Source of the DNA: Bacteroidales bacterium
Lineage (GTDB): Bacteria; Bacteroidota; Bacteroidia; Bacteroidales; VadinHA17
Reading direction: 5' to 3'
Assembly (NCBI GenBank): GCA_003141895.1
Contig: PLNT01000007.1
Span: forward strand, 1-64,000
DNA length: 64,000 nt
Shown: piece by piece, positions 34,936-43,646 of the stretch
Layout of the letters: the number at the start of each line of letters is the position of its first letter
Position numbering within the stretch: position 1 is the stretch's first letter
Program-made: the position numbers and the translations under genes
The notes under the pieces: model-generated
What the model was told of the DNA's origin: nothing
The model's input: the letters and a program-made list of their open reading frames with translations, nothing else
Database searches by the model: none

Positions 34936-35090
34936 GCATTTTAATATATTGATTTACAAGAAAACATATCCAAAGTGGGCTCTCAATATTGGAACGGGAA
35001 ATTGTCTTCGATTATGTCAAACTACGTGATTTATTTGACAACTGGCTCTTTCTTTTTGATAAAGAAAAATTCTCTCTTAAAAAGTTGTTA

Positions 35091-35098
35091 TATTTTTG
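35091..35098 (+). promoter_or_regulatory. Predicted -7 element of the SiaC-like gene
   Basis: TATTTTTG matches TAnnTTTG. It lies inside the longest open frame but 44 bp upstream of the GTG at 35142, which is one reason for choosing that start. Confidence 0.5.
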
Positions 35099-35141
35099 GA
35101 TATGTTTTTTTAATAACTTTAACATTAATAAAAGAATTAAG

Positions 35142-35597
35142 GTGGTCTTAAAAAATCTATTCATCGAACCCACAGCAAAAACTCCCCAGGTTGATTTAAA
35201 TTATCCTTCCGGCGAACTCATCATGTCGGGAAAATCAATTTCGGAAAAAGCTGCGACTCTTTATGAAACTGTTCTCAACTGGGTCACGGAATATATAAAG
35301 AATCCAAGACCTACCACAAACCTGCGGTTAAATCTTGAATATTTCAATACAGCATCTGCAATCTGGCTGGCAAAAATTGTTCAAACACTTGGCTCTATAA
35401 AAGATAGTGAGTACATTTTGATGATCCATCTTTACTTTAATATTGAAGATTACAACAATATGGAAACTGATGATCTGAAAGATGAACTGCATCCAATTAT
35501 TCATATGATAGGTATTCCGACTGTGAGTATGGGAATCAAAATTTATGGAACCGGCGAAAAAGGAGAGATCCTTAAGGAAACGATGGTCCTGATCTAA
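35142..35597 (+). CDS. SiaC-family (DUF1987) regulatory phosphoprotein
   Basis: Family members are small phosphoproteins of partner-switching systems; SiaC of Pseudomonas aeruginosa controls the diguanylate cyclase SiaD and is dephosphorylated by SiaA. Conserved features: FIEPTAKTPQVDLNYPSGEL, then MSGKSISEKAATLYETVLNW, and the central LRLNLEYFNTASAIWLAKIV with the T/S positions normally phosphorylated. GTG at 35142 gives 151 residues; the upstream open frame (from TTG 34989) is rich in aromatic residues and precedes the predicted promoter. No SiaA, SiaB or SiaD gene is adjacent, so this is an orphan copy. Confidence 0.75.
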   Translation: MVLKNLFIEPTAKTPQVDLNYPSGELIMSGKSISEKAATLYETVLNWVTEYIKNPRPTTNLRLNLEYFNTASAIWLAKIVQTLGSIKDSEYILMIHLYFNIEDYNNMETDDLKDELHPIIHMIGIPTVSMGIKIYGTGEKGEILKETMVLI

Positions 35598-35743: not shown

Positions 35744-37249
35744 ATGCAAACGATATTCATTGCTTTGCTATCAATATTCACTATCATGGAAACATTTTCC
35801 CAAAATATTACAACTGACAGGCAACCGTTTGCCGCCGGTAGATTTTATCCGGCTGACAAAAAGGTTCTAACATCAGATCTTTCCGTACTTTTCAGAAACT
35901 GTAAAAAACCTGCGGAGAATTGGAAAGTAAGAGCAATTATCAGTCCCCATGCAGGATATATTTTCTCAGGACGAATAAGTGCATCCGCATTTTCTGCAAT
36001 ACCTCAAAATGCAGTATATAAAAACATTTTTATTATCGGGTCCAGCCATGTGATGTACTTTGACGGTGCATCGGTATATAACTGTGGCGATTATATTACT
36101 CCATTGGGGAAAGCTACGGTTAACAAAGAAATTGCAAACAAGCTTATTTCAGATAATAAAGTTTTCAAATTTCCAGTAGATGCACATATTAAAGAACATA
36201 GCATCGAAAATCAGGTTCCATTTATCCAGTATTATTTTAAGAACACACCTGCTATAGTCCCCATTATAATAGGAACAGATAATGAAAACACTGTACGGAA
36301 AATTGCGGAAGCACTCAGACCATGGTTTGTTCCTGAAAATCTGTTTATTATCAGCAGCGATTTTTCTCATTACCCGGGTTACAAGGATGCTGTTGAAACA
36401 GACAGTCTGACAGCAAATAGTATTATTTCAGGAAATTCAAAAACATTTCTTAATACACTCCAGAGTAATGAATCAAAACATATACCCGGACTTGTTACAA
36501 GCATGTGCGGATGGACTTCAGGACTTACTTTGCTTGATTTAACAGGGGGGAATAAAGAATTTGAAATCAAACTAATAGATTATTGCAATTCAGGTGATTC
36601 TCCTGAAGCTGGTAAAAATGAGGTAGTTGGTTATAATGCTATAGCCGTAATTGATAAAAGTGAAATAGCTGCTGGTGAAAGCCTGGATCAAACCAGTTTT
36701 TCATTTACAGAAAATGAGAAAAAACAACTTTTCAAAATAGTCAGAAACTCAATTCAGTCGAAGCTTTCTGATAACAAGAAGTTAGTACTTGACGAAAAGT
36801 CTGTCACAGAGAACCTTAAAAAGCCAATGGGTGCATTTGTTACTCTAAAAATTGATGGATCTTTGAAAGGCTGTATAGGAAGATTTGTTTCATCGGAACC
36901 CTTATATAAAGTTGTCCAGGAATCAGCCATTTCGAGTGCATTTGAAGATCCACGTTTCTCACCTCTGACAAAGGATGAATACAAAAAAACCGACATAGAA
37001 ATAACAGTACTCGGACCGTTAAAGAAAATCGACAACATTAACGAAATAGTCTTAGGCAAGCACGGTATTTACATAAAGAAGGGCTCCAATGCAGGTACCA
37101 TGCTGCCACAGGTCGCAATAGAGAATGGATGGACGGTGGAACAATTCCTTGAGGTCACTTCAGAGGAAAAGGCTGGTCTTGGCCGGGATGGCTGGAAAGA
37201 TGCTGATATTTATATTTACGAAGGGGTCGTTCTGGAGGAGAATAAGTGA
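35744..37249 (+). CDS. amrB-amrA: Secreted MEMO-AMMECR1 fusion (AmmeMemoRadiSam proteins B and A)
   Basis: Two modules of the AmmeMemoRadiSam set in one 501-residue chain. Residues 1-20 form a Sec-type signal (MQTIFIALLSIFTIMETFSQ), so the protein is probably exported. MEMO domain (about 25-305): IISPHAGYIFSG with H69, H148/H152 in DAHIKEHSIENQVPF, SSDFSHY and C255 in SMCGW correspond to the metal-pocket residues of human MEMO1. AMMECR1 domain (about 325-501): the hallmark LKGCIGR (374-380) and SAFEDPRFSPLT. Function unknown; RNA or protein modification has been proposed for the family. Members are usually cytosolic, so the signal peptide is notable. The partner radical SAM gene is 5.3 kb downstream. 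Confidence 0.85.
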   Translation: MQTIFIALLSIFTIMETFSQNITTDRQPFAAGRFYPADKKVLTSDLSVLFRNCKKPAENWKVRAIISPHAGYIFSGRISASAFSAIPQNAVYKNIFIIGSSHVMYFDGASVYNCGDYITPLGKATVNKEIANKLISDNKVFKFPVDAHIKEHSIENQVPFIQYYFKNTPAIVPIIIGTDNENTVRKIAEALRPWFVPENLFIISSDFSHYPGYKDAVETDSLTANSIISGNSKTFLNTLQSNESKHIPGLVTSMCGWTSGLTLLDLTGGNKEFEIKLIDYCNSGDSPEAGKNEVVGYNAIAVIDKSEIAAGESLDQTSFSFTENEKKQLFKIVRNSIQSKLSDNKKLVLDEKSVTENLKKPMGAFVTLKIDGSLKGCIGRFVSSEPLYKVVQESAISSAFEDPRFSPLTKDEYKKTDIEITVLGPLKKIDNINEIVLGKHGIYIKKGSNAGTMLPQVAIENGWTVEQFLEVTSEEKAGLGRDGWKDADIYIYEGVVLEENK

Positions 37250-37297
37250 CTGAGGGACGAAGAGACATCAGATAAACTAAATCTCTTGGCAATTTAA

Positions 37298-37349
37298 GCG
37301 CTCAGGCGCTCAGGCACTCCAGGCACTTAAGGCACTATAGGCACTCGGA
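37298..37349. repeat. Degenerate 8-9 bp tandem array abutting a start codon
   Basis: Six consecutive units: GCGCTCAG twice (37298-37313), then GCACTCCAG, GCACTTAAG, GCACTATAG and GCACTCGGA (37314-37349). The array ends one base before the ATG at 37351, so it would occupy the translation-initiation region of the membrane protein mRNA. Confidence 0.75.
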
Positions 37350-37350
37350 T

Positions 37351-39789
37351 ATGTATCATGTTATTAGCACCGCGTCTACCGCAATACTTTTATATTTAAT
37401 AAGTTACTTCTTTTACCGGATAGGTTATTATTCCCTTCAGTTTCACAGAAGGTTATGGAATGGGTTGCTTGCTACTGCTTTCCTTGTTACAGCATTTGCT
37501 GGCGTTTTTATAGCTCTTCAGATCAACTATAAATGGAACATACCTTTTATTAAATCGTTGCTTAAATGGCACGTCGAATTTGGTATTGGTTTGGCTATAA
37601 CCGGGATATTTCACTTTATCTGGCATCTGAATTATTACGGAAAATACTTTGAAAGAACAATCAGCAATCCGGGAAGGCCGGAGTTACAAAAACTATCCGC
37701 CTCCACAATAAAACTCAATTTGCTCTTAATCGGATTTATTAGCTCCTCAGTCCAGTTCCTGATGCTCAGAGAGATAATGAACATAACGGGAGGTTATGAA
37801 CTTATATCAGGTTCATTCCTTGGATCCTGGCTGATTGGTTCTGCAATAGGCGCCTCAGTTGCAGGTAAATCGTCTCTGAATGATATCAGGAAGATAAATC
37901 TGGTTTTTGCTTTCAGCCCTTTTGTATCGATAGTACTGATGCTCTTTCTTAGCAGAGTATTGCTAAGTGTCGGAGAAACACCTTCCCTTCTTACATCAGT
38001 AATTTACACTTTTATTGTTCTGATCCCTTTTTGCCTGGTCTCTGGATTTACTTTTACCAAATTAATTATCCTTGCTGGTAATGAAAACATATTTATGCCT
38101 GGAAAATCCTTCTCGATCGAAACCATTGGAGGAATAGTTGCAGGTCTGCTGGTATCTGTATTTTCATCTGGTCTTCTAAATACATATAAATTATTATTAC
38201 TGATAATCTTATTGTCGATCGGTTTTGTCATAACCACATATTATATTGTCAGCAGGAAATCTAAAATCTATTTTCAGTTATTTGTTCTTCTGACAGGATT
38301 GTTAATCTTTTTCTTAAATCCCGATCTGTTGTTCAGAAGAATCTTGCTTCCGGCTATTGAGGTACAGTCATCGATAGATACTCCCTATGGCAATATTACT
38401 AAAGGGAAATATAAAGGAGAGGAAAGTTTGTATTATAATCAAAGACTGATATCGTACAATTATGATACATCTGAACGGGAAGAGGATATTCATTATGCAA
38501 TGTTACAGAGCGACTCTCCTCAAAAAGTAATAATCATTTCAGGATCAATAAAATCCCATCTCCCTGAAGTATTAAAATACCCAGTAAAAAGCATTACATA
38601 TATTGAAAGAGACCCTGCCCTTGCCCGGATCGAACCATCTTCACGGGAAAATTATCCGGGAGTTTTGAGAATCATTAATGAGGATGCCTTCAGATATATC
38701 AGGAACAGCTCTGAAACTGCTGATGTAATAATTCTGCTTACACCTCCACCGACAACTTTGCTCCTTAACAGATACTATACTACTGAATTCTTTTATGAGA
38801 TTAAGAAAAAGCTTAATCCTGATGGGGTTTTTATGTGCTCACCAGGGCCAGGGGATAATTATTTTAACAAAGAATCCGTGAATCTGTACTCTTCGATTTA
38901 TAATAGTCTGGCTGCCAATTTTAAAAATGTAAAACCGGTTGGTGGCAATAAACTATATTTCATTGCTTCTGACAAAAAAATATCCCTGTCATTTTGCGAA
39001 CTTGTGTCAAAGAAAAACATTAAAAATACTTATGTCTGCTCCGACTATCTTGAAGACGATCTTATTGAAAGAAAGTCAGCGGAAATAAATTCTATTATTG
39101 ACCATGACATTAAACAGAATACATCAGCCTTTCCGGTTGCCTGTCTTCATTCCCAGGCTTATCAGTTCAGTAAAACAATCGGTGAGAAGGCACCTGCAAT
39201 TGTAGTATTGTTTATTATCTTCGCATTACCTGTAGCATCAGTAAAAAGAAGGAACCTGCTTATGTATTTCAGTGCGGCAGCCCTTGCCGGATTTGAAATA
39301 ATTCTGCTTCTAATGCTCCAGCTTATGATTGGAAATATGTATCAGCTGACAGGATTGATAATAGCAGCATTGATGGCTGGTCTTGCTGTCGGTTCAGGAG
39401 TAAATTTTTCTTCACCGAATACTTTTTCCATCAGAATTAAAGTTATTTCGCTGATATTATTTTATATAATATTCAGTCTGGCTTTTAATTATTTGATAGA
39501 AGTTAAAAGTGTTATTCTTTCTATAATACTGATAATGCTTTCAGGTATTTTGCCTGCATTGTTTACAGGAAGTATATTTCGTGAACTTACTATTGGCAAA
39601 GATGGACTGGCAACCTCTCCGGCAATTTACAGCGCCGATCTGGCGGGATCTGCATTCGGTTTTATATTTATCTCAGGCATTATTATTCCTTCCATTGGAA
39701 TCAGAATTTCTGTATTTTTACTATCAGCCCTTGTTTTTACAGGAATTCTTATCAGGACAATCAGCAATACAGTACTTAAGTCAGAATAA
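37351..39789 (+). CDS. Polytopic membrane protein with spermidine-synthase-like domain
   Basis: An 812-residue membrane protein. Residues 1-100 have about three helices with H74, H88 and H92 in LKWHVEFGIG and FHFIWHLNYY, a spacing like haem-ligating cytochrome b561/ferric-reductase helices. About 120-335 is a membrane domain of the fused spermidine synthase family; about 345-520 is a spermidine-synthase-like SAM-binding domain (DTPYGNI, EVLKYPVKSITYIERDPALA, NEDAFRYIR); the rest is again membrane. The usual glycine loop is SGSIKSH, and the catalytic D-x-x-P is TPPPT, so polyamine synthesis is doubtful. It lies between the MEMO-AMMECR1 and radical SAM genes, suggesting a common pathway. Function unknown. 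Confidence 0.7.
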   Translation: MYHVISTASTAILLYLISYFFYRIGYYSLQFHRRLWNGLLATAFLVTAFAGVFIALQINYKWNIPFIKSLLKWHVEFGIGLAITGIFHFIWHLNYYGKYFERTISNPGRPELQKLSASTIKLNLLLIGFISSSVQFLMLREIMNITGGYELISGSFLGSWLIGSAIGASVAGKSSLNDIRKINLVFAFSPFVSIVLMLFLSRVLLSVGETPSLLTSVIYTFIVLIPFCLVSGFTFTKLIILAGNENIFMPGKSFSIETIGGIVAGLLVSVFSSGLLNTYKLLLLIILLSIGFVITTYYIVSRKSKIYFQLFVLLTGLLIFFLNPDLLFRRILLPAIEVQSSIDTPYGNITKGKYKGEESLYYNQRLISYNYDTSEREEDIHYAMLQSDSPQKVIIISGSIKSHLPEVLKYPVKSITYIERDPALARIEPSSRENYPGVLRIINEDAFRYIRNSSETADVIILLTPPPTTLLLNRYYTTEFFYEIKKKLNPDGVFMCSPGPGDNYFNKESVNLYSSIYNSLAANFKNVKPVGGNKLYFIASDKKISLSFCELVSKKNIKNTYVCSDYLEDDLIERKSAEINSIIDHDIKQNTSAFPVACLHSQAYQFSKTIGEKAPAIVVLFIIFALPVASVKRRNLLMYFSAAALAGFEIILLLMLQLMIGNMYQLTGLIIAALMAGLAVGSGVNFSSPNTFSIRIKVISLILFYIIFSLAFNYLIEVKSVILSIILIMLSGILPALFTGSIFRELTIGKDGLATSPAIYSADLAGSAFGFIFISGIIIPSIGIRISVFLLSALVFTGILIRTISNTVLKSE

Positions 39790-39822
39790 CTGCAGAATTA
39801 CCCCGCCTTTTGCGTAAACGTT

Positions 39823-42219
39823 TTATTCGGTTCTAAGTGAATCAACAGGATTTGAAAGAGCTGCTTTCAAAGACTGGATGCATATAGTCGCCACTGATAT
39901 TGCTATACAGAATATTCCGCTGATGATAAATGCCCACACAGGAATGGCAATATGGTAAGCAAAACCGAGAAGCCATTTATTTGCAAAATAAAAAGCCAAT
40001 GGTACTGAAATAATAAATGCTATTAATACTGGTTTGAGATAATCGGCAAAAAGGTGCATAATGATATTCATTACAGTTGCACCCATTATTTTCCTGATAC
40101 CGATTTCTTTTGTCCGTTGAACAGTCATTATAGCTACGATACCAAATAATCCAAGACATGCAAGCAGGATCGCTATCGTTGAAAAAGTACTGAATATACG
40201 GGCCGTATTCTGTTCGTTTTTGTACAACTTATCATATTCCTCATCGAGAAAATGATACTCAAAAGGTCTATCCATAATCCGTCCATTCCAGATTTTTTTG
40301 ATGGATGATAAGGCAGAAGATACATCATTGCCACTAATTTTTATCAGTATTACCTTCTGATATTCATCAAGGAGAAAAATAACCAATGGCATAACAGGCT
40401 CATGCAAAGAAGCTAAATGAAAATCTTTAATAACCGCTTTTACGGTTCCCTTAAACCCCATATCTACCTGACGACCAATACTTTCTTCCGGTGTCCATCC
40501 AATTTCTTTTACAGCTGTCTCATTTAAGATCAGGCTATATTTAAAACCATCGGCACTTTTCAAAGCTTTAACCTGTTGAAGGTCAGATTCAGTAAAGTCA
40601 GAGCCTGCTATTATCTTAATGCCCAACGCTTGAAGAAAATCAAGGTCCACAGGGATTGCCTTTGTGTTAAATTGTTTTTTACCGGTTTCAGTAGCGACAC
40701 TTATAACATTAGTCCACGTTATATTTACAGGCGTTGTATTACCGGCGCTGACTTCTTTTACAAACGGGTCCTGTTTTAATTCAGTTTTAAGATTATAATA
40801 ACCGGGCCAATCATTTGCGCCAATCGGAAGAAAAATCACTTTTTCTTTGTCATAACCTAGATTTATATGTTGAATAAATGATCTTTGTTGTTGGATGATA
40901 ATAGTGGTAATAATCAGCACTGTTGATATTACGAATTGGAATATTATAAGAGATTTTCTGAATTTCCCTCCTGATACAGCTAAAAGAGACCCGGGTTTCA
41001 GAATATTATTCAGAGTATGGCCTGAAATGATCATTGCCGGATATGCTCCTGATATTAAGCTTACTAAGACACATAAAATAAATATTGTCCCGATTATTAC
41101 CGGTTGAAAAAGTAAAGAGCTGGGAAAAACTCTTCCGGTAAGAATGCTAAAATAAGGTAGCAAGACAATGGCTCCAATAATTGAAAGTATTGCTGCGATT
41201 ACTGTAAGTATTCCGGATTCTCCGACAAATTGGATGAATAATTGCGATTCCGACGCTCCTAACAGTTTTCTGATCCCGATTTCTGTCCTTTTTCCTGAGA
41301 CCTGGGCAATTGTAATGTTTGAATAATTAATAATTGCGATCATAAGAATGAGTATCGCAATAATTATAAGAACATATATATACACAAAAGGAGTGTTTGG
41401 AACAAGGCCGTCTAAACTTGAATGCAGGTGAACACGTGCTAAAGGTTCAAGATGCAGAGTAAAATAGTCAATTCCGGATAAGTCTTTCTCTTTAAGACTG
41501 ACTTCTTTCACATAACTATCAATCTTATTACTAAGATCTCCGACGTCAGTACCTTTTTCCAATAAAAGAAAAGTAAAATAATTGGCAGGAAACCATCCTT
41601 CGGTTTTCGAGTCATCCAGATTGATAAATGATGCAAGAAAATCAAACTTTATCTGAGAATTATCAGGTACATCATCAACAATGCCGGTTATAGTATAATT
41701 CTGATTGCCATCAATAATAAGATTTTTTCCAAGCGGATCATCATTCCCAAAATACTTTTTTGCCATAGATCGAGTCAGCACTATCTTGCCAGGGCCATCA
41801 AGAGCATTTGTCACAGTCCCTTCAATAATAGGGAAAGTAAATATTCTCAGAAAGCCTGAATCGACAAACAGAAAATTCTTCTCGTTATAGATAACGTTCT
41901 TATTTTTAACCACTTTCGAATTTCTGATCATCCTGACGTAAGATTTCACTGACGGGAAGGTACGCTGCAGTTGTGGCCCTGCCATGGTTCCGGTTACTGC
42001 CCATTGATTACGGGTTCCATTTACCGAATATTCCATAGTGACCCGGGCAATTTCATTTGCTTGTTTATTGAAGTGGTCAAAACTTAGTTCATAATAAACA
42101 TAAACAGCTATCAGGGAAAAGCAAACCATCCCGATGGATAAACTTAAAAGTTTTATGATAGATGACATTTTGTTCCGGGAAAACCGACGAAAAGCGATAA
42201 TAATTTGGTTTTTTTTCAT
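39823..42219 (-). CDS. FtsX/MacB-like ABC-type permease
   Basis: A 798-residue inner-membrane protein of the Bacteroidetes large-permease type. One N-terminal helix (about 20-42), a periplasmic MacB_PCD domain (about 45-280), three helices, a second helix plus periplasmic domain (from about 425), and three C-terminal helices. GIRKLLGAS and GIRKIMGATV are the two cytoplasmic coupling motifs of duplicated FtsX cores, so one chain replaces a dimer of permeases. No ATPase is encoded beside it; the partner must be elsewhere. Antimicrobial peptide or lipoprotein export is typical of the family, but the substrate is unknown. It is oriented against the AmmeMemoRadiSam genes. Confidence 0.85.
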   Translation of the reverse strand: MKKNQIIIAFRRFSRNKMSSIIKLLSLSIGMVCFSLIAVYVYYELSFDHFNKQANEIARVTMEYSVNGTRNQWAVTGTMAGPQLQRTFPSVKSYVRMIRNSKVVKNKNVIYNEKNFLFVDSGFLRIFTFPIIEGTVTNALDGPGKIVLTRSMAKKYFGNDDPLGKNLIIDGNQNYTITGIVDDVPDNSQIKFDFLASFINLDDSKTEGWFPANYFTFLLLEKGTDVGDLSNKIDSYVKEVSLKEKDLSGIDYFTLHLEPLARVHLHSSLDGLVPNTPFVYIYVLIIIAILILMIAIINYSNITIAQVSGKRTEIGIRKLLGASESQLFIQFVGESGILTVIAAILSIIGAIVLLPYFSILTGRVFPSSLLFQPVIIGTIFILCVLVSLISGAYPAMIISGHTLNNILKPGSLLAVSGGKFRKSLIIFQFVISTVLIITTIIIQQQRSFIQHINLGYDKEKVIFLPIGANDWPGYYNLKTELKQDPFVKEVSAGNTTPVNITWTNVISVATETGKKQFNTKAIPVDLDFLQALGIKIIAGSDFTESDLQQVKALKSADGFKYSLILNETAVKEIGWTPEESIGRQVDMGFKGTVKAVIKDFHLASLHEPVMPLVIFLLDEYQKVILIKISGNDVSSALSSIKKIWNGRIMDRPFEYHFLDEEYDKLYKNEQNTARIFSTFSTIAILLACLGLFGIVAIMTVQRTKEIGIRKIMGATVMNIIMHLFADYLKPVLIAFIISVPLAFYFANKWLLGFAYHIAIPVWAFIISGIFCIAISVATICIQSLKAALSNPVDSLRTE

Positions 42220-42509
42220 CTTTTATATTCTGTAAATCGGACAATAGTTATATCGTTATAGAGTTATATTGTAATTGCTAAATAGACTTAAGTTTTTTTC
42301 TATTGCTGCGTGAAATACAACTTTTTATTTCGTTTTCAGAAAGTGTTTAGTCGGGATAACTCTTCATCCAAAGCTCCTAAGCGTAAAGGAAAATGTATTT
42401 TTAAAAGTCTGGTTGATCAGCTTTATCACCTAATGTACTTTCAGAAAATTGTATATTTGTATGGTTTCAGGATAGGGTCGGCTTTGAAAGAGTAATTATC
42501 AGTAATAAA
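42220..42509 (+). other. 290-bp divergent spacer
   Basis: AT-rich, holding the predicted promoter of the radical SAM gene near its right end. A 61-codon open frame here (42310-42495) overlaps that promoter and has no family features, so I do not call it a gene. Confidence 0.4.
42452..42459 (+). promoter_or_regulatory. Predicted -7 element of the radical SAM gene
   Basis: TATATTTG matches TAnnTTTG, 50 bp before the ATG at 42510. The -33 element is not evident. Confidence 0.5.
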
Positions 42510-43646
42510 ATGTATAAAAAGAAATGTGATCTCAGCAAACGCGATTTCCTGAAAAAATCTCTTGCATTATCAGCAGGACTTATATGCTTTCCATGCAAAT
42601 CAATTTTAGCTGGTATGAGCCTTGAAGAACAATCTCTTTACAGGAAGATTGCTATGTACCAGGAAGAGACTGCGCGTGGTATCATGTGCAGGATATGTCC
42701 AAACGAATGTGTACTCAAGGAAGGCGAATTAAGCAAATGTAATAATCGGATTGTACACAACTCAAAGTTGTATACAATGGCATTCGGTAATCCTAATACC
42801 GTAAATGTTGACCCGATAGAGAAAAAACCTCTTTATCATTTTCTCCCTGGATCAAAAGCATTCTCAATTGCTACAGCAGGCTGTAACCTTGTATGCCTGA
42901 ATTGTCAGAACTGGACTATCTCTCAGACCAGCCCTGATAAAACCAGAAATTATGATCTTCCTCCTGAAAATGTGGTTGATTCATGTGCCAAAAATAATTG
43001 CAGTTCAATTGCTTATACTTATTCGGAACCAATTACTTTTTATGAATATGTTTACGAAACTGCTGTTCTTGCCAGAAAAGCTGGTATAAAAAATGTTTTT
43101 AAGTCGAATGGCTATATTAATCCCGAACCATTGAAAAAACTATGTGGGGTTATTGATGCTACAAATATTGATCTGAAAGCTTTCAATGAAAGTACTTACC
43201 TGAAACTTACAGGGGGAAAACTACAACCAGTACTTGACTCGTTGAAAGTACTGAAAGACATGGGTATTTGGCTTGAAATTACAAACCTTATAATTCCAGA
43301 CTGGACTGATAATGAAGATGATATCAGAAAAATGTGCAAATGGTTAAGTGAAAATGGATTCAATAATACTCCATTACATTTCAGCAGGTTCTATCCTATG
43401 CACAAACTTGAACAATTACCTCCAACTCCTGTTGAATTGCTTAAAAATGCATATGATATTGCTACCGCTGAAGGATTAAAATATGTTTACACAGGAAATG
43501 TGCCAGGAAGTGAGATATCAGATACAAAATGTCCGTCGTGTAATACAAAAGTTGTTATCAGACAGGGATTCCGGATAGTAGAAAATTCAATAACCGGGGG
43601 AAAGTGTAATAAGTGCGGAAATAAAATTGATGGGGTCTGGAACTAA
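42510..43646 (+). CDS. amrS: AmmeMemoRadiSam radical SAM enzyme with Tat-like signal
   Basis: Third component of the AmmeMemoRadiSam set, related to pyruvate formate-lyase activases. 378 residues; the radical SAM motif is C125-x3-C129-x2-C132 (AGCNLVCLNCQNW). An N-terminal cysteine cluster (C60, C63, C67, C77) and a C-terminal zinc-ribbon-like pair (CPSC near 345 and CNKCG near 367) are family features. SKRDFLKKSLALSAGLI (9-25) resembles a Tat signal with KR in place of RR, which would direct the folded iron-sulfur enzyme across the membrane. Its own promoter and an opposite-strand permease separate it from the MEMO-AMMECR1 and spermidine-synthase-like genes. The reaction is unknown. Confidence 0.85.
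   Translation: MYKKKCDLSKRDFLKKSLALSAGLICFPCKSILAGMSLEEQSLYRKIAMYQEETARGIMCRICPNECVLKEGELSKCNNRIVHNSKLYTMAFGNPNTVNVDPIEKKPLYHFLPGSKAFSIATAGCNLVCLNCQNWTISQTSPDKTRNYDLPPENVVDSCAKNNCSSIAYTYSEPITFYEYVYETAVLARKAGIKNVFKSNGYINPEPLKKLCGVIDATNIDLKAFNESTYLKLTGGKLQPVLDSLKVLKDMGIWLEITNLIIPDWTDNEDDIRKMCKWLSENGFNNTPLHFSRFYPMHKLEQLPPTPVELLKNAYDIATAEGLKYVYTGNVPGSEISDTKCPSCNTKVVIRQGFRIVENSITGGKCNKCGNKIDGVWN

Follow-up and report, generated by a model that had tools for sequence, protein, structure and literature searches.

A probably extracytoplasmic AmmeMemoRadiSam system with a transporter-like partner protein in Bacteroidota

Results

A stretch of 64,000 nucleotides from a Bacteroidales bacterium (contig PLNT01000007.1, forward strand, hereafter the window) encodes an AmmeMemoRadiSam system, in which a fusion of the MEMO and AMMECR1 families, a polytopic membrane protein and a radical S-adenosylmethionine (SAM) enzyme almost certainly form a functional unit that is found in Bacteroidota. 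Judged from the leader sequences of the two soluble proteins, the module very probably resides outside the cytosol. We favour the view that it has moved to the periplasmic side of the inner membrane, where SAM or 5'-deoxyadenosine may be handled by the transporter-like partner. The parts of AmmeMemoRadiSam span archaea to humans (MEMO1, AMMECR1), and we know of no established function for the trio. The features of the locus are as follows, bit scores being given against the curated cut-off of each model.

35744-37249, plus strand: MEMO-AMMECR1 fusion (AmmeMemoRadiSam proteins B and A), putatively exported form, 501 residues; TIGR04336 (212.1 bits against 26) and TIGR04335 (161.5 against 99)
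35744-35800, plus strand: predicted Sec signal peptide of the fusion, residues 1-19, cut before Gln20 as read by eye
37351-39789, plus strand: 17-helix membrane protein, 812 residues, AlphaFold2 model; matches to spermidine synthases and major facilitator superfamily (MFS) transporters, PF01564
37351-37641, plus strand: N-terminal histidine-rich three-helix domain of the membrane protein, possible b-haem domain
38347-39174, plus strand: spermidine-synthase-like domain of the membrane protein, residues ~333-608, predicted to be periplasmic
42510-43646, plus strand: radical SAM enzyme with a Tat-type leader, 378 residues; TIGR04337 (343.4 bits against 220)
42510-42614, plus strand: Tat-type leader of the radical SAM enzyme, residues 1-35 (SKRDFLKKSLALSAGLI)
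42882-42905, plus strand: CxxxCxxC motif (C125, C129, C132) for the [4Fe-4S] cluster and SAM
39823-42219, minus strand: FtsX/MacB-type permease (PF02687, PF12704), outside the system

The leader of the radical SAM enzyme

The N-terminus of the radical SAM protein, MYKKKCDLSKRDFLKKSLALSAGLICFPCKSILAG, contains a twin-arginine translocation (Tat) motif in its KR rather than its RR version. The occurrence of such leaders was scored by a mechanical rule of our own in the radical SAM loci of a phylum sample (395 genomes, evenly drawn, from which all listed radical SAM loci were fetched), in 80 loci of the membrane protein and in the window; four fragments and one copy with its N-terminus in an assembly gap were left out. 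Where the locus includes the membrane protein, all 76 copies that could be scored have a leader; where it does not, none of the 87 copies has one, one of these (L209) starting at a contig end so that its N-terminus is not visible. Leaderless paralogues occur in the same genomes and thus serve as a natural control for the leaders.

The 76 motifs comprise 58 KR, 15 RR, 2 TR and 1 IR versions, the protein of the window being among those that do not satisfy a strict RR requirement. The Arg and the Phe are invariant, a basic residue occupies the K position of the Tat consensus SRRxFLK in 70 of the motifs, and agreement with this consensus is seen at each position (S/T, K/R, R, x, F, L/I, K/R). By a rule likewise our own, an uncharged hydrophobic stretch follows the motif in 76 of 76. 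The Tat component that was searched, TatC, is encoded in the genome (G000:C41:112149, 225.5 bits). Chance leaders were dismissed as an explanation, because orthologues keep their leaders down to 41% identity. The preliminary description had proposed that leaderless homologues with no conserved neighbour would speak against a pathway working outside the cytosol; the opposite was seen, and the split in leader content together with the regular presence of the membrane protein supports its suggestion of such a pathway, as far as sequences can tell.

A second set, drawn from the genus and the order, shares part of its genomes with the first, and its frames were read from stop to stop. Thirty copies have both leader and membrane protein, 26 have neither, five are discordant and one, with its N-terminus in an assembly gap, was set aside. 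Four of the discordant rows are rule matches in loci without the membrane protein: in L043 and L073 the match lies upstream of the sole possible start codon, in L076 an earlier start is possible, and L062 has a genuine leader with the membrane protein on another contig of the same genome. As an observation in its own right, positions 321-2507 of L072 (genome G048) hold tandem radical SAM genes in an operon of the putatively exported type, one with a leader and one without.

One genus, g97 (L221 10068-11312 and the relatives L273-L277 and L285), provides what reads as an independent sign of export. Between the leader and the catalytic domain of the radical SAM enzyme, five of its six copies carry a CxxCH haem-c motif with a variable middle (CSTCH, CMSCH, CLRCH, CLSCH and CLKCH), and the sixth copy has YLKCH. 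Attachment of haem c takes place outside the cytosol, and cytochrome c assembly genes are found in all seven genomes searched, namely those of the six g97 members and that of the window. Among the 12 leaderless copies of the same family that were found, none has CxxCH or a leader at that place. A CxxCH anywhere in the protein was dismissed as a sign of haem, since CPxCH occurs in the zinc ribbons of leaderless copies, and only the N-terminal motif of g97 was used.

The exported radical SAM and Memo proteins look active. In the radical SAM enzyme, residues C60, C63, C67, C77, C125, C129, C132, C341, C344, C366 and C369 are conserved to at least 90% in both the exported (75) and the leaderless (83) copies. 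Glu-173, which corresponds in the alignment to the glutamate in the GGE motif of pyruvate formate-lyase (PFL) activating enzyme, is present in 75 of 75 exported copies. As to the Memo domain, all 78 homologues encoded in membrane-protein loci retain the metal ligands His-69, His-102 and Cys-255.

The signal peptide of the MEMO-AMMECR1 fusion

The sequence at the start of the fusion, MQTIFIALLSIFTIMETFSQ, looks like a signal peptide of the Sec type. A rule of our own for such signals is satisfied by 75 of 78 fusions in membrane-protein loci, the three misses having hydrophobic N-termini too, and by one (L228) of 19 Memo proteins elsewhere, a number that would be 21 had late-starting matches to the Memo profile not been excluded. 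Some of the fusions (L220, L221 and L272) bear lipoprotein-like signals. Both leaders named in the preliminary description, Sec-like on the fusion and Tat-like on the radical SAM enzyme, are thus present and recur in homologues, the latter in a KR version with RR among the orthologues. Three genomes (G058, G091 and G292) combine a fused, signal-less MEMO-AMMECR1 with a leaderless radical SAM protein, and in them no membrane-protein match was found at E 1e-20.

The genome of the window encodes a second Memo-family protein (G000:C23:57160-57945, L093), possibly exported, with the lipoprotein-type signal LLISLFSC. It is without an AMMECR1 domain, for which the genome has one match only, and its gene precedes genes for an NlpC/P60-like SH3 protein and for a protein with an RR Tat-like leader (families assigned by eye).

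Recurrence of the three genes

The loci of the membrane protein are the best 80 of 412 relatives in genome contigs, and all of these best 80 carry Bacteroidota names. A radical SAM gene is present in 69 of them, a Memo or AMMECR1 domain in 75 and both in 66. Contig ends account for most of the 11 loci lacking the radical SAM gene. Two others (L165 and L171) have full flanks, the radical SAM gene lying outside the locus as a copy with a KR leader elsewhere in each genome, and in L167 no such gene is seen in the locus though the sequence runs 3.6 kb further. When gene families were counted in 38 chosen loci (most of them distant, the window and some nearer ones included), the membrane protein recurred in 37, the radical SAM gene in 36 and MEMO-AMMECR1 in 35, the next family reaching at most 14. 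A search of these 38 loci for a conserved substrate gene nearby gave no widely recurring neighbour. All these comparisons draw on kin sequences and draft genomes.

In the phylum sample, 24 of 395 genomes have a match to the membrane protein, which is partial only in 16 (proteins of ~505-531 residues) and near full-length in eight. All eight of the latter genomes have a radical SAM copy in the same locus and a leaderless paralogue besides. The membrane-protein and radical SAM genes are separated by one other gene in L230, as in the window, and by that for MEMO-AMMECR1 in L220 and L221; in L272 the radical SAM gene is interrupted by the contig end. Among relatives of the window's genome, 47 of 60 have TIGR04337 matches above the cut-off. 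By manual count two copies are present in 32 of the 36 genomes of the genus (the window's own included); of the copies fetched from the genus, one stands in a cassette of MEMO-AMMECR1, membrane protein and radical SAM enzyme, and the other elsewhere without the membrane protein. The leaderless paralogue of the window's own genome (L031 9590-10606, G000:C13) has no Memo or AMMECR1 gene near it.

The membrane protein

The AlphaFold2 model (predicted local distance difference test score, pLDDT, 85) contains 17 long helices that we read as membrane-spanning, ten before and seven after an inserted domain. Its helical core resembles MFS transporters, with Z 21.7 over 319 residues for SV2A and Z 21.4 over 346 residues for FLVCR1, and the inserted domain resembles spermidine synthases (best Z 24.2); the sequence of the protein also matches PF01564 (E 3e-12). 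The predicted structure thus models as an MFS-like core with an inserted spermidine-synthase-like domain. The spermidine-synthase-like neighbour named in the preliminary description is therefore present as sequence, but it lies inside the membrane protein and is no separate gene. By the positive-inside rule this domain is placed outside, since in 17 of 17 sequences the odd loops hold 21-31 basic residues compared to 1-7 in the even loops.

Two acids that align with those of spermidine synthases, Glu-419 and Asp-445, are each kept in 93 of 94 rows of an alignment in which the window is counted twice and some genomes possibly twice; in those enzymes they are the acids on the ribose and adenine sides. 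At position 466 there is Asp in four of the 94 rows and Glu in 13 (Pro-466 in the window), at position 463 Asp in at most three and Leu, Asn or Ala in 87 (Leu-463 in the window), and at position 400 any acid in at most four. The two catalytic Asp residues in the DxxDP-type motif of SpeE, which correspond to positions 463 and 466, are not found in the membrane protein of the window. With the adenosine-side pair kept and most of the acids for amine binding and catalysis exchanged, this domain may still bind adenosine, and aminopropyl transfer is unlikely.

In the N-terminal domain, His-74 and His-88 are invariant and His-32 and His-92 are conserved to at least 90% among 60 homologues. Matches to the Pfam families DUF4405, cytochrome b561 and ferric reductase are seen in 19, 13 and 11 of 55 sequences, all below threshold (best E 0.00084). 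For the fold of this domain, Foldseek gave no match at E<=0.001 and VIA-align none at Z>=8. Matches extend to the start of the profile in 73 of the 80 membrane-protein loci and in none of seven other loci of the phylum sample. The electron supply by N-terminal histidines that the preliminary description had suggested is consequently only weakly supported: the b-haem family matches speak for it, and the lack of a clear fold match and the absence of the domain from seven members of the phylum sample speak against it.

Neighbouring genes

A polytopic membrane protein between the fusion and the radical SAM enzyme had been described for this locus, and 17 predicted helices bear it out; the FtsX/MacB-type permease also lies between them, beside the radical SAM gene. 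Among the 77 loci holding both the membrane-protein and the radical SAM genes, a permease occurs at this position in two, the window and L106 (10539-12935), the latter permease being 91% identical and in the same place and strand. It was therefore dismissed as a part of the system and is regarded as an insertion.

Immediately upstream of MEMO-AMMECR1 the window encodes a SiaC-like regulatory phosphoprotein (34989-35597). Together with argS and ligA its gene belongs to a synteny common to a sub-group of loci and not seen in the most distant ones. The protein was dismissed as a part of the system, since SiaC, argS, ligA and dapA each occur in at most 14 of the 38 chosen loci. The window gave zero Rfam matches when riboswitches near the genes were looked for, and no tRNA was found in it.

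Discussion

How could such a module work outside the cytosol? In the mechanism that we propose, the radical SAM enzyme would acquire both its fold and its iron-sulfur cluster in the cytosol before export by Tat, while MEMO-AMMECR1, with its Sec or lipoprotein signal, would be exported by Sec, and both would act in the periplasm. The membrane protein could carry SAM outward, or the adenosine by-product back inward, with the periplasmic spermidine-synthase-like domain as the adenosyl-binding site. The N-terminal histidine domain, where present, might hand electrons to the radical SAM enzyme, and in genus g97 a c-type haem on the enzyme itself may take over this role. As a substrate we would guess at a membrane-associated lipid or isoprenoid, or an envelope protein. 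The handling of an adenosyl ligand by the membrane protein is a tentative proposal, and the delivery of electrons by the histidine domain is more doubtful. Taken as a whole, a full periplasmic radical SAM pathway with its own MFS-type carrier for SAM or the by-product (including a catalytically dead spermidine synthase domain) and an electron-feeding haem domain seems unlikely.

If the proposal is true, SAM must be available outside the cytosol, and the regular partner becomes a testable carrier. It had been objected in the preliminary description that SAM is cytosolic; a spermidine-synthase-like domain that perhaps handles SAM would answer this objection. With an exported form kept apart from the leaderless paralogue of the same cell, only molecules of the envelope come into question as substrates. 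To our knowledge no radical SAM enzyme has been established to act outside the cytosol, and a literature search revealed none described as doing so. Nor did the search turn up an account of an AmmeMemoRadiSam system that is exported, although an earlier mention is possible in work on the context of Memo (Burroughs et al. 2019, J Biol Chem).

Several points weigh against a move of the module to the periplasmic side of the inner membrane. The presence of SAM in the periplasm is an assumption of this hypothesis, and no SAM exporter of such a kind is known to us. The rules for leaders and for signal peptides were both composed after the sequences had been seen, and a KR motif as in the window would fail strict RR-based Tat predictors. 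Because the loci are related and two label changes suffice in a quick tree of 77 copies, the association of leader and membrane protein rests on few independent events; L220 and L221 stand apart from a clade of 32 rows in this tree, and one origin or two are both possible. The fifth discordant row of the second leader set (L072) is an extra leaderless radical SAM copy inside an operon of the exported type, and genome G410 (L228) has a signal on MEMO-AMMECR1 together with a leaderless radical SAM protein and no membrane protein. The alignment column of Glu-173 is 51% conserved in leaderless copies. CPxCH in the C-terminal zinc ribbons occurs in many copies, leaderless ones included, so that CxxCH alone is no proof of haem. 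Finally, the seven other members from the phylum sample start at profile positions 114-125 and are without the histidine domain.

Three other explanations have to be considered. The membrane protein could be a scavenger that imports 5'-deoxyadenosine, methylthioadenosine or the product, with SAM entering the periplasm by another route. The loss of most amine-side and catalytic acids with retention of the adenosine side is as compatible with a neutral nucleoside as with SAM, and 5'-deoxyadenosine inhibits radical SAM enzymes, as one report states (PMC8102628). This explanation leaves the source of SAM unaccounted for, and we consider it rather improbable.

Alternatively, the leaders could be untranslocated membrane anchors, so that the enzymes would stay at the cytosolic face, bound to the membrane protein, and would use cytosolic SAM normally. 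The SAM problem would then disappear, and the fused homologues without leaders in G058, G091 and G292 suggest that these enzymes are presumably able to work in the cytosol. On the other hand, the conserved R-x-F motif is a signal to the translocase rather than a generic anchor, the ends of the MEMO-AMMECR1 leaders resemble cleavable or lipoprotein signals, five of six exported enzymes of one genus carry CxxCH, and the inserted domain of the partner is predicted outside; anchoring is, in our judgement, improbable. The least probable explanation is that the system is exported and its radical SAM protein makes no use of SAM, the cluster being an electron carrier or a metal sensor and the membrane protein moving another solute, for although no source of SAM in the periplasm is known and other metals might bind to the C-terminal ribbon and the cysteines near the N-terminus, the cysteines of the cluster show the same conservation as in the leaderless copies and the PFL-activating-enzyme-type Glu-173 is present in 75 of 75 exported ones.

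Comparison with known systems

The probably exported module of the window is most like the leaderless AmmeMemoRadiSam system, with which it shares all three families above their cut-offs, the catalytic cysteines and the Memo metal ligands. In loci without the membrane protein, none of the 87 radical SAM proteins has a leader and 18 of the 19 Memo proteins have no signal peptide, whereas the system of the window has MEMO and AMMECR1 fused and predicted to be exported, and a transporter-like protein added.

With the fused MFS/spermidine synthase family NF037959 the membrane protein has a common architecture of MFS-like helices and a spermidine-synthase-like domain. The cut-off of 40 for this model is exceeded by the relatives L230 (44.4) and L224 (48.2) and not reached by L221 and L231, and the protein of the window itself gave no match at E 0.01. 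It differs from NF037959 in the N-terminal histidine domain, present in 73 of 80 loci, and in the loss of the catalytic acids.

By sequence, the nearest solved structure to the radical SAM enzyme is PFL-activating enzyme (3c8f), a cytosolic activase, with which the CxxxCxxC region is aligned. The enzyme of the window lies far under the equivalog cut-off for that family (65.0 compared to 231.75 bits) and carries additional cysteines towards its N-terminus as well as a C-terminal ribbon.

Human MEMO1 (7KQ8, 3BCZ) is not fused to AMMECR1, and its homology to the fusion is detectable over residues 28-210. The iron ligands of human MEMO1 are given in a report (PMC11081632); His-49 and His-81 align with His-69 and His-102 of the window, and Cys-244 matches Cys-255 in our own reading. 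Unlike human MEMO1, the MEMO-AMMECR1 protein of the window bears a predicted signal peptide.

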